Shown: in pieces, positions 7,779 to 12,601 of the stretch
Position numbering within the stretch: the stretch's first letter is position 1
Layout: each line of letters opens with the position of its first letter
From: Spirochaetota bacterium
GTDB taxonomy: Bacteria; Spirochaetota; Spirochaetia; Sphaerochaetales; Sphaerochaetaceae
Length of the DNA: 64,000 bases
Direction of reading: 5' to 3'
NCBI GenBank assembly: GCA_918298275.1
Contig: CAKJZO010000024.1
Coordinates: 1 to 64,000 of the forward strand
Notes under the pieces: model-generated
The model's input: the letters and a program-made list of their open reading frames with translations, nothing else
Told to the model about the DNA's origin: nothing
Databases searched by the model: none
Made by a program: the position numbers and the translations under genes

Positions 7779-7849
7779 AGCGCCCGACGGGAGTCGAACC
7801 CGCGTCTTCAGCTTGGAGGGCTGAGGTAATACCGTTATACCACAAGCGC
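7779..7849 (-). tRNA. tRNA-Gly (anticodon TCC)
   Basis: Cloverleaf of 71 nt: acceptor GCGCTTG paired with CGGGCGC (two G-U pairs), anticodon stem TCAGC/GCTGA with loop CCTCCAA (anticodon TCC), and T arm GCGGG-TTCGACT-CCCGT. The 3' CCA is not encoded. A strong terminator follows. Confidence 0.95.
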
Positions 7850-8902: not shown

Positions 8903-10216
8903 TCAGATATATGTTACAACATGTACATATATATTTCCGGAGTACATGCCACCGGCAAGGTTTTCAGGAGTATTGTTGAATGTTTGTTCAGATGCCTGTG
9001 GAATAGTAATGGATATAGTACCCGAATCAAACCAACGGACATATTTATCATTCTGTTTGTCTATCATCGATTCACCGCTGATTACGAGATAATTGGTTCT
9101 TAAAATCGGAGTGTCTTTCATCCATCCGTCTGTTCCGTCATATGCAATCGTCACTCCGGTAGCACCAGGACCATCGGAGTACTTATAACCTCGTTCTGAA
9201 TTCAGATACGCAATGAAATTGATGCTGTTTGAGGCCGAATCAATTTCACTGATACCTCCCGTATTAGGGTCAGTATAACGTAAAGTGAATTTGTTTATGG
9301 AGGCTCCGGTTGTTGTCTGCCCGGTCGGGGAGCTGGACAGGTAAATATATACAAGTCCGTCTGAGTTACCGTTCATAACTGAATTTGTTGTGTATCCATA
9401 ATCGGCGACATCAATCGGCAGTCTTGTCTCATATAATTGTGCAATGTCAAAGGATGTTGCAGCAGCAAGACGTGAAACGCTCATTATGGATGTCATGCTT
9501 GAATCCGGTTTGTTGTTCGGTTTATAAGTGCCTGCCAGATGAAGATCATACTGTTGCTCGGTACCGTCTGAACAAGAGATTGTAAACCGAATAGTAGCTG
9601 TATAGTACTCGTCAGTTGGAATCAGACGATAAATCGTTCCACCATACTCGACCTGATCATTGACGGTATCTACAGGAAGATCCATTACAAGCGCAACGTC
9701 CCACCAAATTGAATCGTAATTCTTTGCAATATTGGCAGGAACAGTGATTGAATCGGTACCCGAACTTGAATGAGGCTGGTTTCCCATGTGCCATGAGTAA
9801 TTAGCTACATCGACATCAGACGAGCCATTTCTTCCTCGGCAAAAGAGATCAATACCGAAAGGACGTTTATAATCCTCATTCCCGATAAGCGTATAGCACC
9901 ATTCGGAAGAAATAAGCTCAGCACTCAGAGTAATGTCACCATAAGCAACATACTGACCATCTACTTTATGCCTAATCTCAGTAATTCCCACAACCGCAAG
10001 ATTCTGAGGCCAGTAATACTTGCCTGTATCTCTCAGGTTCGATGCATCAGTTGAACTGTTGCCTGTAAAGCTGGATCTTGTAGTGTGCGAGAGAAAGGCA
10101 TTGGACGCGAGATCGACAACTGTACATCTGTCATTCTGACGCATATATGGCTGCAATGCAGAGCATGAAAGCAAAACGAGGAACAGGAATAAAACTGATG
10201 TCAGAACTTTTCTCAT
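8903..10216 (-). CDS. Exported beta-rich protein of unknown function (operon gene 4)
   Basis: Not recognised. It has 437 residues with a signal peptide MRKVLTSVLFLFLVLLSCSA; the LLSC could be a lipobox. The mature part is rich in Ser, Thr, Tyr, Asn and Asp, consistent with a secreted beta-sandwich or adhesin-like fold. It ends with a strand-like GGMYSGNIYVHVVTYI, a C-terminal G-x-Y pattern shared with at least two sister genes. The start is fixed by GGAGGG upstream of the ATG, and one base separates it from the preceding gene's stop. It is the largest member of a four-gene unit (12126 down to 8903) and possibly a tip or surface subunit, but that is only inference. Confidence 0.65.
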   Translation of the reverse strand: MRKVLTSVLFLFLVLLSCSALQPYMRQNDRCTVVDLASNAFLSHTTRSSFTGNSSTDASNLRDTGKYYWPQNLAVVGITEIRHKVDGQYVAYGDITLSAELISSEWCYTLIGNEDYKRPFGIDLFCRGRNGSSDVDVANYSWHMGNQPHSSSGTDSITVPANIAKNYDSIWWDVALVMDLPVDTVNDQVEYGGTIYRLIPTDEYYTATIRFTISCSDGTEQQYDLHLAGTYKPNNKPDSSMTSIMSVSRLAAATSFDIAQLYETRLPIDVADYGYTTNSVMNGNSDGLVYIYLSSSPTGQTTTGASINKFTLRYTDPNTGGISEIDSASNSINFIAYLNSERGYKYSDGPGATGVTIAYDGTDGWMKDTPILRTNYLVISGESMIDKQNDKYVRWFDSGTISITIPQASEQTFNNTPENLAGGMYSGNIYVHVVTYI

Positions 10217-10217
10217 A

Positions 10218-10832
10218 TCAGATTCCCTCCAGAAGGAAAGTAACCGTTGCATTATATGTGCCGTCAGGAACCAAAGTATCATTGTTCTTGTTTGCATCTG
10301 TGGTTTCATCAAGCATGAACAGTACATACTGGTTTTCTTCCGTAGAAATCAAGGGAGTATTTAAACCTGTCAAATACGAAATGTTTTCCAGGTTGAATGT
10401 CGTATTCTCTCCACTGTGGACGGTTATGAATTCGGTTCTTGTAGAAAACGATCCGTCGCTGTTCTCTCCCGCATAGGAAAGACGGAATTTGAGATAATAG
10501 CCGATGGAACTGTTTCCGTTGACAAGGTCGGTTGCAGAAATCTGCAGTGATCTTGTCTGATAATTAGTTGCGATAATCCAAGTCGCAATGACTCTTCCCT
10601 GAAGAGGATTGGTACTGTATGCTACATCGTTTCCCAAAAGGTCAAACGGGAAGCCTATTGAACCGCTTCCTTCGGCCAGGATAGGAAATACATTCACGAT
10701 ACAGTACTTCTTGATGAAACCGCGAAGAACGAGTTCTTTAGAATTGTTCGCGATCTTTTTTTCAGTCGGATCAGCACAGATACTGAACAGAAGAACCATC
10801 AAGAGGGTCAAGATAATCAACACACGTTTCAT
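10218..10832 (-). CDS. Exported beta-rich protein of unknown function (operon gene 3)
   Basis: Not recognised. It has 204 residues. The signal peptide MKRVLIILTLLMVLLFSICA is followed by a short polar mature domain ending GTYNATVTFLLEGI, the G-x-Y plus alternating hydrophobic terminal strand also seen in genes 1 and 4. The start at 10832 is preferred over 10847 because GAGGGGG lies at the right distance; 10847 would overlap the upstream gene by 4 bases (ATGA). The small size and shared terminal strand fit a subunit-like paralogue. No chaperone or usher gene is nearby. Confidence 0.6.
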   Translation of the reverse strand: MKRVLIILTLLMVLLFSICADPTEKKIANNSKELVLRGFIKKYCIVNVFPILAEGSGSIGFPFDLLGNDVAYSTNPLQGRVIATWIIATNYQTRSLQISATDLVNGNSSIGYYLKFRLSYAGENSDGSFSTRTEFITVHSGENTTFNLENISYLTGLNTPLISTEENQYVLFMLDETTDANKNNDTLVPDGTYNATVTFLLEGI

Positions 10833-10843
10833 TTCCAGCCCCC

Positions 10844-11563
10844 TCATACCGATGATATGACCAGCCTTACCCTGGCAACATATTTCATGTTTGCTTCAGG
10901 AGTGCGAGCCGGACTCCCGAAATAAATATTCATACTAAAGGAGATTGAGTTTTCTATAAACTGATCTTCTGTTAAACCACGGATTACTCCATTCTGACTG
11001 GGAATGTCGGTATTGTTTACCCATGAACCGTTCTTTTTTTTCTCACTTGTAATCTTGCTGGTGATTACACCTCTGATTCCGGAAGCCGTGAGCGGTTTAA
11101 TTGAATAATTTGATCCACTGGTAGTGAATCCGCTCAATGTCCATTTGCCTTTATAACGATAATCGACGGAATTATATTCGCATGTAACGGTATTCGTACT
11201 CATTCTTGAATTTGAAGTCGTATAAGTAGCAGTAAAAAAATCGGTAGGATCATATTCATTTATGAAAGGATAGAACCAGAGTTCAACAGCTATGTCATTC
11301 TTCAGATTCGTAGAAATCTTAACTGTAAGAGCGTTATTGAGAGTTTGGTTGTAATTGTTAAGTCCGTATTCCTGAGTAGTACCTGTGATGTCGGTATCAT
11401 AGTTGTTTGATATAGTTATCGTGTATCTCAAAGGCGGAAGTTCCGGATTCTTGTAGGCAGAGAACACAAGTGATGAATTTGCGGTGGAGACATCTCCTCC
11501 ATCACAGAAAACAACTGAGATTATGATAAGAAGCAGTAATGAAACAACAATCAGTCTTCTCAT
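10844..11563 (-). CDS. Exported beta-rich protein of unknown function (operon gene 2)
   Basis: Not recognised. It has 239 residues with signal peptide MRRLIVVSLLLLIIISVVFC and probable cleavage before DGGDVSTANSS. The mature part has regularly spaced Tyr, Thr and Asn-rich strands and ends NMKYVARVRLVISSV. It overlaps gene 1 by 4 bases (ATGA), implying coupled translation and stoichiometric expression. Its amino-acid composition resembles genes 1, 3 and 4 and differs from the housekeeping genes around it. Confidence 0.62.
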   Translation of the reverse strand: MRRLIVVSLLLLIIISVVFCDGGDVSTANSSLVFSAYKNPELPPLRYTITISNNYDTDITGTTQEYGLNNYNQTLNNALTVKISTNLKNDIAVELWFYPFINEYDPTDFFTATYTTSNSRMSTNTVTCEYNSVDYRYKGKWTLSGFTTSGSNYSIKPLTASGIRGVITSKITSEKKKNGSWVNNTDIPSQNGVIRGLTEDQFIENSISFSMNIYFGSPARTPEANMKYVARVRLVISSV

Positions 11564-12126
11564 GTTGCGGCCGCCTCGATAAGAACAGTTCCTTTATATG
11601 AACCATCTGCATATGAATCAAGATAAGGTTCAAAATTAAAGGAAATCGGATAATAACAGGTGACGGAAATATCATTCGATGGTGAATAGTCTCCTGTAAA
11701 TGTAGTGGAGTAAGTATTTGACGGATTGCTGCTCACTGTAACAGTTCCGTCGGTAATATCCGTATACTCTTCATTGACCAATCTGTAGACTTTTGCCTGA
11801 TACTCTCCCCAGAATGATGGAGATGGATCATATTTCAGAGTCAAAGGTGTAAAAGACAATGTGATAGTATATGGATTTTTCGTAGTCTTGTTGGTATAAA
11901 CAGCAGCGAATACCTGTGGATGCGAAAGATCAGAACTCAAATCAATGTCATAAGAAGAGATTCTGTTCTTATTAATATCAGTAAAATACATGTCAGAAAT
12001 AGTGTCTGCAACAATACGCTTGAAGAAGTACTTGAATTCCACAACACCTGTTTCAGCAAAAACGGAAAAGATAGATATAGAGAGAACAATCAAAATAGCA
12101 ATGATTCTAGTGCTGTATCTCTTCAT
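11560..12126 (-). CDS. Exported beta-rich protein of unknown function (operon gene 1)
   Basis: Not recognised. It has 188 residues with signal peptide MKRYSTRIIAILIVLSISIF and likely cleavage after VFA. The mature domain begins ETGVVEFKYFFKRIVAD and ends DGSYKGTVLIEAAAT, again the G-x-Y terminal strand. The start at the ATG (12126) is chosen because GAGG precedes it by 6 bases; an in-frame TTG 12 bases earlier overlaps that ribosome site. It is the first gene of the exported-protein operon and sits right behind a strong promoter. Confidence 0.62.
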   Translation of the reverse strand: MKRYSTRIIAILIVLSISIFSVFAETGVVEFKYFFKRIVADTISDMYFTDINKNRISSYDIDLSSDLSHPQVFAAVYTNKTTKNPYTITLSFTPLTLKYDPSPSFWGEYQAKVYRLVNEEYTDITDGTVTVSSNPSNTYSTTFTGDYSPSNDISVTCYYPISFNFEPYLDSYADGSYKGTVLIEAAAT

Positions 12127-12142
12127 TTCTAACCTCAACTAA

Positions 12143-12172
12143 ATAATACTAAAGGTTTAGTTTAGCTGTCAA
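12143..12172 (-). promoter_or_regulatory. Promoter of the exported-protein operon with a palindrome in its spacer
   Basis: TTGACA (12172-12167), an 18-base spacer and TATTAT (12148-12143). The spacer contains the perfect inverted repeat ACTAAA-2-TTTAGT (12148-12161), touching the -10. That placement suits a repressor or a MerR-like activator site. The ATG is 17 bases past the -10. Confidence 0.65.
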
Positions 12173-12235: not shown

Positions 12236-12265
12236 ACAAAAAAGGACACCCTTTCGGATGTCCTT
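12236..12265 (-). terminator. Terminator after rpsU
   Basis: Minus-strand AAGGACATCC-GAAA-GGGTGTCCTT followed by six or more T. One mismatch or wobble in the stem. It lies 27 bases past the rpsU stop. Confidence 0.87.
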
Positions 12266-12291: not shown

Positions 12292-12501
12292 TTAATAAGC
12301 CTTGGAATTGCGCATCTTCTTGACTTTCAGCATCTGCTTGCGGGCAAGTGCCTTCTTCTTTCTGTGCTCAATTGCGGAGGGCTTCTCGAAGTACTCGCGC
12401 ATCTTGAACTCGCGGATCACGCCTTCCTTCTCAACCATTCTCTTGAAACGCTTGATAGCTTTCTCAAGTGGTTCAGTCTCATCGACTTTCACGTATGCCA
12501 T
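12292..12501 (-). CDS. rpsU: 30S ribosomal protein S21
   Basis: Small-subunit protein next to the 3' end of 16S rRNA, aiding initiation. It has 69 residues: [21 protein letters not shown], then the basic [20 protein letters not shown] core and a lysine-rich tail. The start is set by GAGGGGG upstream; a longer frame adds 17 residues foreign to S21. The gene has its own terminator. Confidence 0.95.
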
Positions 12502-12601
12502 ATAACTCACCCCCTCTGCCCCTCGGCTCAAGAATCCTTTGCAATCTATCATTACGTGAGAACTTTGTCCACACCAATTCGTAATTATTTCACGAAATAT
12601 T

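Follow-up and report, generated by a model that had tools for sequence, protein, structure and literature searches.

A surface-fibre operon of the Sphaerochaetaceae that probably encodes subunits of a chaperone-usher pilus

Four overlapping genes in the genome of an uncultured, gut-type member of the Sphaerochaetaceae, here called A to D, form what is very probably a surface-fibre operon encoding the structural subunits of a chaperone-usher pilus. The operon lies in the window, by which we mean the whole stretch of 64,000 nucleotides that was analysed (GenBank assembly GCA_918298275.1, contig CAKJZO010000024.1, positions 1 to 64,000). The main evidence that A to D are substrates of a chaperone-usher machine is the linkage and co-occurrence of the corresponding genes in relatives. 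Within the window's own genus the operon and the chaperone-usher pair are not linked, and so for the window's own operon the assignment to this machine rests on homology.

The operon (8903-12126, minus strand) is one transcription unit in which all four frames are intact and each gene begins with a signal peptide. A and B overlap by 4 bases (ATGA) and D starts 1 base past the stop of C, while C starts 11 bases past B or, alternatively, overlaps it by 4 bases via an upstream ATG; the start at 10832 is favoured because of its GGGGG Shine-Dalgarno sequence. The exported, beta-rich and tightly packed genes described in a first-pass annotation of this DNA, with their 4-base and 1-base junctions, were thus all seen, and the upper coordinate of 12172 given there is the -35 end of the promoter. 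The features are, in the order of transcription:

12292-12552, small gene upstream of the operon, read as ribosomal protein S21 from sequence
12242..12265, minus strand, terminator-like hairpin that closes this small gene and sets the operon apart from it
12143..12172, minus strand, sigma-70-like promoter TTGACA-18-TATTAT upstream of A, near consensus (11/12 matches)
11560..12126, minus strand, subunit A, 188 aa, with signal peptide and mature N-terminus ETGVVEFKYFF as candidate donor strand
11563..11607, minus strand, C-terminal G-x-Y strand of A, DGSYKGTVLIEAAAT
10844..11563, minus strand, subunit B, 239 aa, with which the conserved B-C-D core begins
10847..10897, minus strand, degenerate C-terminal strand of B, EANMKYVARVRLVISSV, with the degenerate form NMKYVARVRLV
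10218..10832, minus strand, subunit C, 204 aa, AlphaFold model with pLDDT 85.9
10704..10775, minus strand, N-terminal extension that follows the signal peptide of C, a candidate donor strand, with no predicted strand before residue 44
10221..10265, minus strand, C-terminal G-x-Y strand of C, DGTYNATVTFLLEGI
8903..10216, minus strand, subunit D, 437 aa, last gene, AlphaFold model with pLDDT 87.5 and pTM 0.82
8906..8953, minus strand, C-terminal G-x-Y strand of D, GGMYSGNIYVHVVTYI

Elsewhere in the window a tRNA gene (7779-7849, minus strand) lies downstream of a carbamate-kinase-like gene.

At their C-termini A, C and D carry G-x-Y and then alternating hydrophobic residues. This shared terminal strand had been remarked on for three of the proteins, and they are indeed its sole carriers, since the pattern G-x-[YFW]-x3-hydrophobic-x-hydrophobic within the last 24 residues occurs in exactly these three of the 57 window genes. 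Across the subunit families, which were defined by operon position and by profiles without signal peptides, the pattern is found in 37/37 C, 33/37 D, 11/29 B and 6/9 A proteins, and in 1-3% of shuffled tails. Archaic pilins and tips also carry a C-terminal G-x-Y strand, for example AGTYSDVINVEVTAN. At the N-terminus the enrichment of the alternating donor-strand pattern is no more than moderate, and D shows the pattern too. Profile-profile comparison relates C to A (79%) and to B (67%), and the A family is found mainly within the window's own genus.

Searches of Pfam, NCBIfam and, by sequence, the PDB returned no match for A to D, which agrees with the first reading that no homologue could be recognised. 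In archaic chaperone-usher pili the pilin domain is SCPU (spore coat U). PF05229 (SCPU) was sought in 37 C, 37 D and 29 B proteins and found in none, no SCPU or Fimbrial Pfam match of the subunit proteins was significant, and the profiles of A to D reached about 3% or less against known pilins, with no significant relation. The invariant cysteine pair that forms the disulfide of archaic pilins is likewise absent, each mature A, B and C having 0-2 cysteines. The machine is thus of archaic type, and the subunits, judged by sequence, stand outside SCPU and are families of their own. The earlier comparison with the terminal strands of spore-coat-U-like proteins therefore pointed in the right direction, as the chaperone and usher are archaic-type, but does not extend to the subunits themselves. 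Homology to a known lipoprotein family, which had been named as an argument against the fibre reading, was also looked for, and a lipoprotein family was rejected: D has LLSCSA-LQPYM where a close homologue has LLSSFA-LQPYM, so the cysteine is not conserved, and no family match was obtained.

In the proposed mechanism, A to D would be exported by Sec into the periplasm, where a PapD-type chaperone would hold each subunit, presumably by pairing with its C-terminal G-x-Y strand, and would pass it to an outer-membrane usher. The subunits would then be joined head to tail by donor-strand exchange through their N-terminal donor strands, with D at the tip as adhesin and A, B and C as shaft and adaptor subunits. 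Fibre assembly, fibre formation and adhesion by A to D are what we infer from these features. Archaic and alternative chaperones have their binding mode in common (PMC4654587).

The predicted folds of C and D have a bearing on these roles. The AlphaFold model of C shows a low-confidence N-terminal extension of 20-odd residues, a first strand from residue 44 and a final strand at the C-terminal end; Foldseek gave no significant structural match for C, with a weak likeness to carbohydrate-binding modules. The model of D is confident and begins with a strand directly after the signal peptide, leaving no free N-terminal extension. Foldseek against the PDB ranks the CfaE-CfaB pilin fusion first for D (E 2e-5) and also places SafD, CsuA/B, CfaE and CupB6 in the top 50, the TM-scores of these matches being low at about 0.2. 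As D is large, stands last and has no free N-terminal extension, it is rather likely to be a tip adhesin with two domains.

A less probable alternative, though one deserving some weight, is that A to D are chaperone-usher substrates that build a short tip fibrillum or an amorphous coat with no long pilus, D being a cap or terminator. Capsule-like chaperone-usher assemblies such as the F1 antigen are known, the operon has one gene per subunit with no obviously dominant major pilin, and adhesive activity is assigned to D from its size, position and fold only. However, D has no free N-terminal extension, a property of tip subunits, and among solved structures it is best matched by CfaE, a tip adhesin, in fusion with its pilin; both points argue against this alternative.

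The case for a chaperone-usher pilus is made chiefly by the relatives of the window's genome. D was found in 61/139 genomes and C in 60/139, and at 63 of the 81 D places C is the gene immediately upstream. A search among related spirochaetes, as had been suggested beforehand, recovered the operon in its own genus and, in the form B-C-D, throughout the family. D and the chaperone lie within 8 kb on the same strand in 32 of the 57 genomes having both, where 0.2 would be expected by chance; their spacing is 4.7-5.9 kb in 31 of these genomes and smaller in G110. In the relatives' loci that were opened the gene order is chaperone-usher-B-C-D, with B directly behind the usher, and in G025 and G020 a 256-aa PapD-domain chaperone and an usher-like protein of 1247/1124 aa are encoded ahead of the subunits. 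Furthermore, the chaperone occurs in 60/64 subunit-positive genomes vs 45/75 others (p 2.7e-6), and three of the 4/64 genomes with subunits and no chaperone are 62-73% complete.

These data speak against the proposal that A to D are stand-alone beta-sandwich proteins, secreted or on the outer surface, such as binding modules or a coat, that take another export route and share G-x-Y as a common edge strand. The absence of a significant pilin profile match, the weak likeness of C to carbohydrate-binding modules and the unlinked position of the operon in its own genus would all suit such proteins, but the same genes stand downstream of a chaperone and an usher in those 32 genomes, the subunits nearly always co-occur with the chaperone, and the C-terminal motif is kept in every C protein. 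We rejected the proposal on the operon linkage to the usher and regard it as improbable.

The chaperone is also found in Sphaerochaeta and in rumen, gut and sediment MAGs of one Spirochaetales family. Sphaerochaeta and relatives (L096, L097, L100, L194, L095), among them the cultured S. halotolerans (L194), have the chaperone-usher pair alone, with no adjoining subunit genes detected and often beside V-type-ATPase-operon-like genes. Sporadic chaperone homologues in the class's other families (G288, G396, G401, G434, G465, G488, G495, G500, G045, G058), sometimes in two copies, suggest that the gene was lost in a patchy way or spread horizontally. Downstream of D, genera g11 and g16 (L170, L094, L037) encode several further exported proteins of 180-230 aa with the same type of terminal strand, and these may be additional, perhaps major, pilins.

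Only one chaperone-usher pair was found in the window's genome (a draft, 86% complete), and it lies on contig C5, where a PapD-type chaperone (G000:C5:12940-13674; PapD_N E 7.6e-10, above the Pfam cut-off) adjoins the usher (L088:9712-12861). The first-pass annotation saw neither usher nor chaperone, which holds for the operon itself and not for the genome. Its suggestion of a surface fibre or adhesin set is the best-supported reading, but the absence of a chaperone-usher route that it implied has to be given up in view of the pair on C5 and the linkage in relatives.

PapD_N is matched by 13/14 members of the chaperone family that were scanned, and the usher family PF00577 matches only 3/15 spirochaete ushers (best 1.1e-5), the window genome's own usher not being among them. 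Using hhalign, the spirochaete chaperones align with SCPU-linked archaic chaperones at 100% (E 1e-48) and the ushers with SCPU-linked archaic ushers at 100% over 748 columns (E 1e-44); the values against classical K-12 proteins are 27% for chaperones and 94.7% over 730 columns for ushers (FimD-type), and unrelated control proteins remain below 1%. Among PDB sequences the chaperone profile matches only EcpB (E 0.0011). Niveispirillum, Gallionella and other Proteobacteria encode homologous chaperones next to Pfam ushers and, at two loci, next to SCPU proteins as well; in Leptolyngbya a homologous chaperone adjoins an annotated pilus usher. These systems are of the archaic type. Tree building places the spirochaete proteins in a clade of their own with full support, and they are therefore a distinct lineage; as the chaperone tree leaves the join of the spirochaete and archaic groups unsettled at 47% support, the archaic assignment rests on the profile scores. 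By these scores the spirochaete chaperone and usher are unambiguous archaic-type homologues.

The spirochaete ushers have an architecture of their own. A hydrophobic segment lies near the N-terminus in 15/15 ushers examined, those of G020 and G025 having several, and a Pro/Glu-rich linker ahead of the usher domain is present in most of the 15, with up to 80% P+E in 60 residues. Membrane segment and linker are seen together at L088:9712-12861 (the window genome's usher), L037:7510-11250 and L094:7862-11233. Proteobacterial archaic ushers, at about 840-860 aa, are without the extra segment and linker, and the Gallionella usher has an ordinary signal peptide. The N-terminal segment may be an inner-membrane anchor, and the TonB likeness of the linker is one of composition only (NCBIfam E 0.7).

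At least five subunit operons were found in the window's genome, on C24 (the window), C105 and C49 and as two in tandem on C21. These probably share one assembly machine, and the pair on C5 would serve all of the at least five dispersed cassettes. The tandem operons on C21 are at L168:4774-11520 and the C49 operon, of about five genes, is at L169:4315-8366; the last gene of the C21 and C49 operons encodes an exported protein of 440-470 aa with a G-x-Y type terminal strand. Compared with the closest species, identity is 54% for A, 48% for B, 79% for C and 85% for D, and it is 99.6% for the chaperone, 95.6% for the usher and 94-100% for the genes flanking A to D. Divergent A and B beside a constant machine are as expected of exposed structural parts. 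Since synonymous divergence (window vs L028) is also raised in A to D, at about 1.0-2.6 and at about 0.1-0.7 in flanking genes, the sequences suggest that the cassette was replaced or exchanged by recombination at the window site, besides fast change. A silent or decaying state of the window operon, as one unexpressed member of a family of variable pilus cassettes, could be argued from the presence of at least five cassettes and the strong divergence of A and B, but four intact frames, a near-consensus promoter and dN/dS of 0.09-0.31, far under 1 in each of the four genes, make this an improbable reading.

If A to D are indeed subunits of a chaperone-usher pilus, adhesive pili would be present in a widespread gut and sediment spirochaete family and many orphan exported proteins of Sphaerochaetaceae would become nameable. 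One machine standing apart from many subunit cassettes raises the question of how one usher picks its fibre, and the extra membrane anchor would alter the view of usher placement in the envelope. More tentatively, and with some doubt, the Sphaerochaetaceae could represent a separate chaperone-usher branch with its own pilins and with inner-membrane-anchored, TonB-like-linker ushers spanning the envelope, in which one machine and several dispersed, fast-diverging cassettes in the window's genus provide combinatorial surface variation.

Among known systems, classical pili (type 1, FimA-H) resemble the spirochaete system in the PapD_N domain of the chaperone and in an usher alignable to FimD, but the match of the machine is far weaker than to archaic pili and A to D have no Fimbrial domain. 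Of the alternative pili, CFA/I (CfaE-CfaB) provides the best fold match of D and ECP (EcpA/EcpD) the chaperone EcpB as sole PDB sequence match; however, A to D have no sequence relation to EcpA or EcpD, and the usher matches EcpC weakly. Proteobacteria, Cyanobacteria and Deinococcota are given as carriers of archaic chaperone-usher pili (PMC4654587, PMC10104325), and no report of them in Spirochaetes was found in the searchable literature. Unlike archaic (sigma) pili such as Csu of Acinetobacter baumannii and CupE of Pseudomonas aeruginosa (PMC9452303, PMC10104325, PMC4654587), A to D are without the Pfam SCPU domain and the conserved cysteine pair, the usher carries an N-terminal membrane segment and a Pro/Glu-rich linker, and the window's subunit operon is separate from the chaperone-usher pair. 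They share with these pili an archaic-type chaperone and usher by profile, the C-terminal G-x-Y strand and the N-terminal extension in C, and, as in Csu (CsuA/B, CsuA, CsuB, CsuE), A to D comprise three small subunits and one large subunit.
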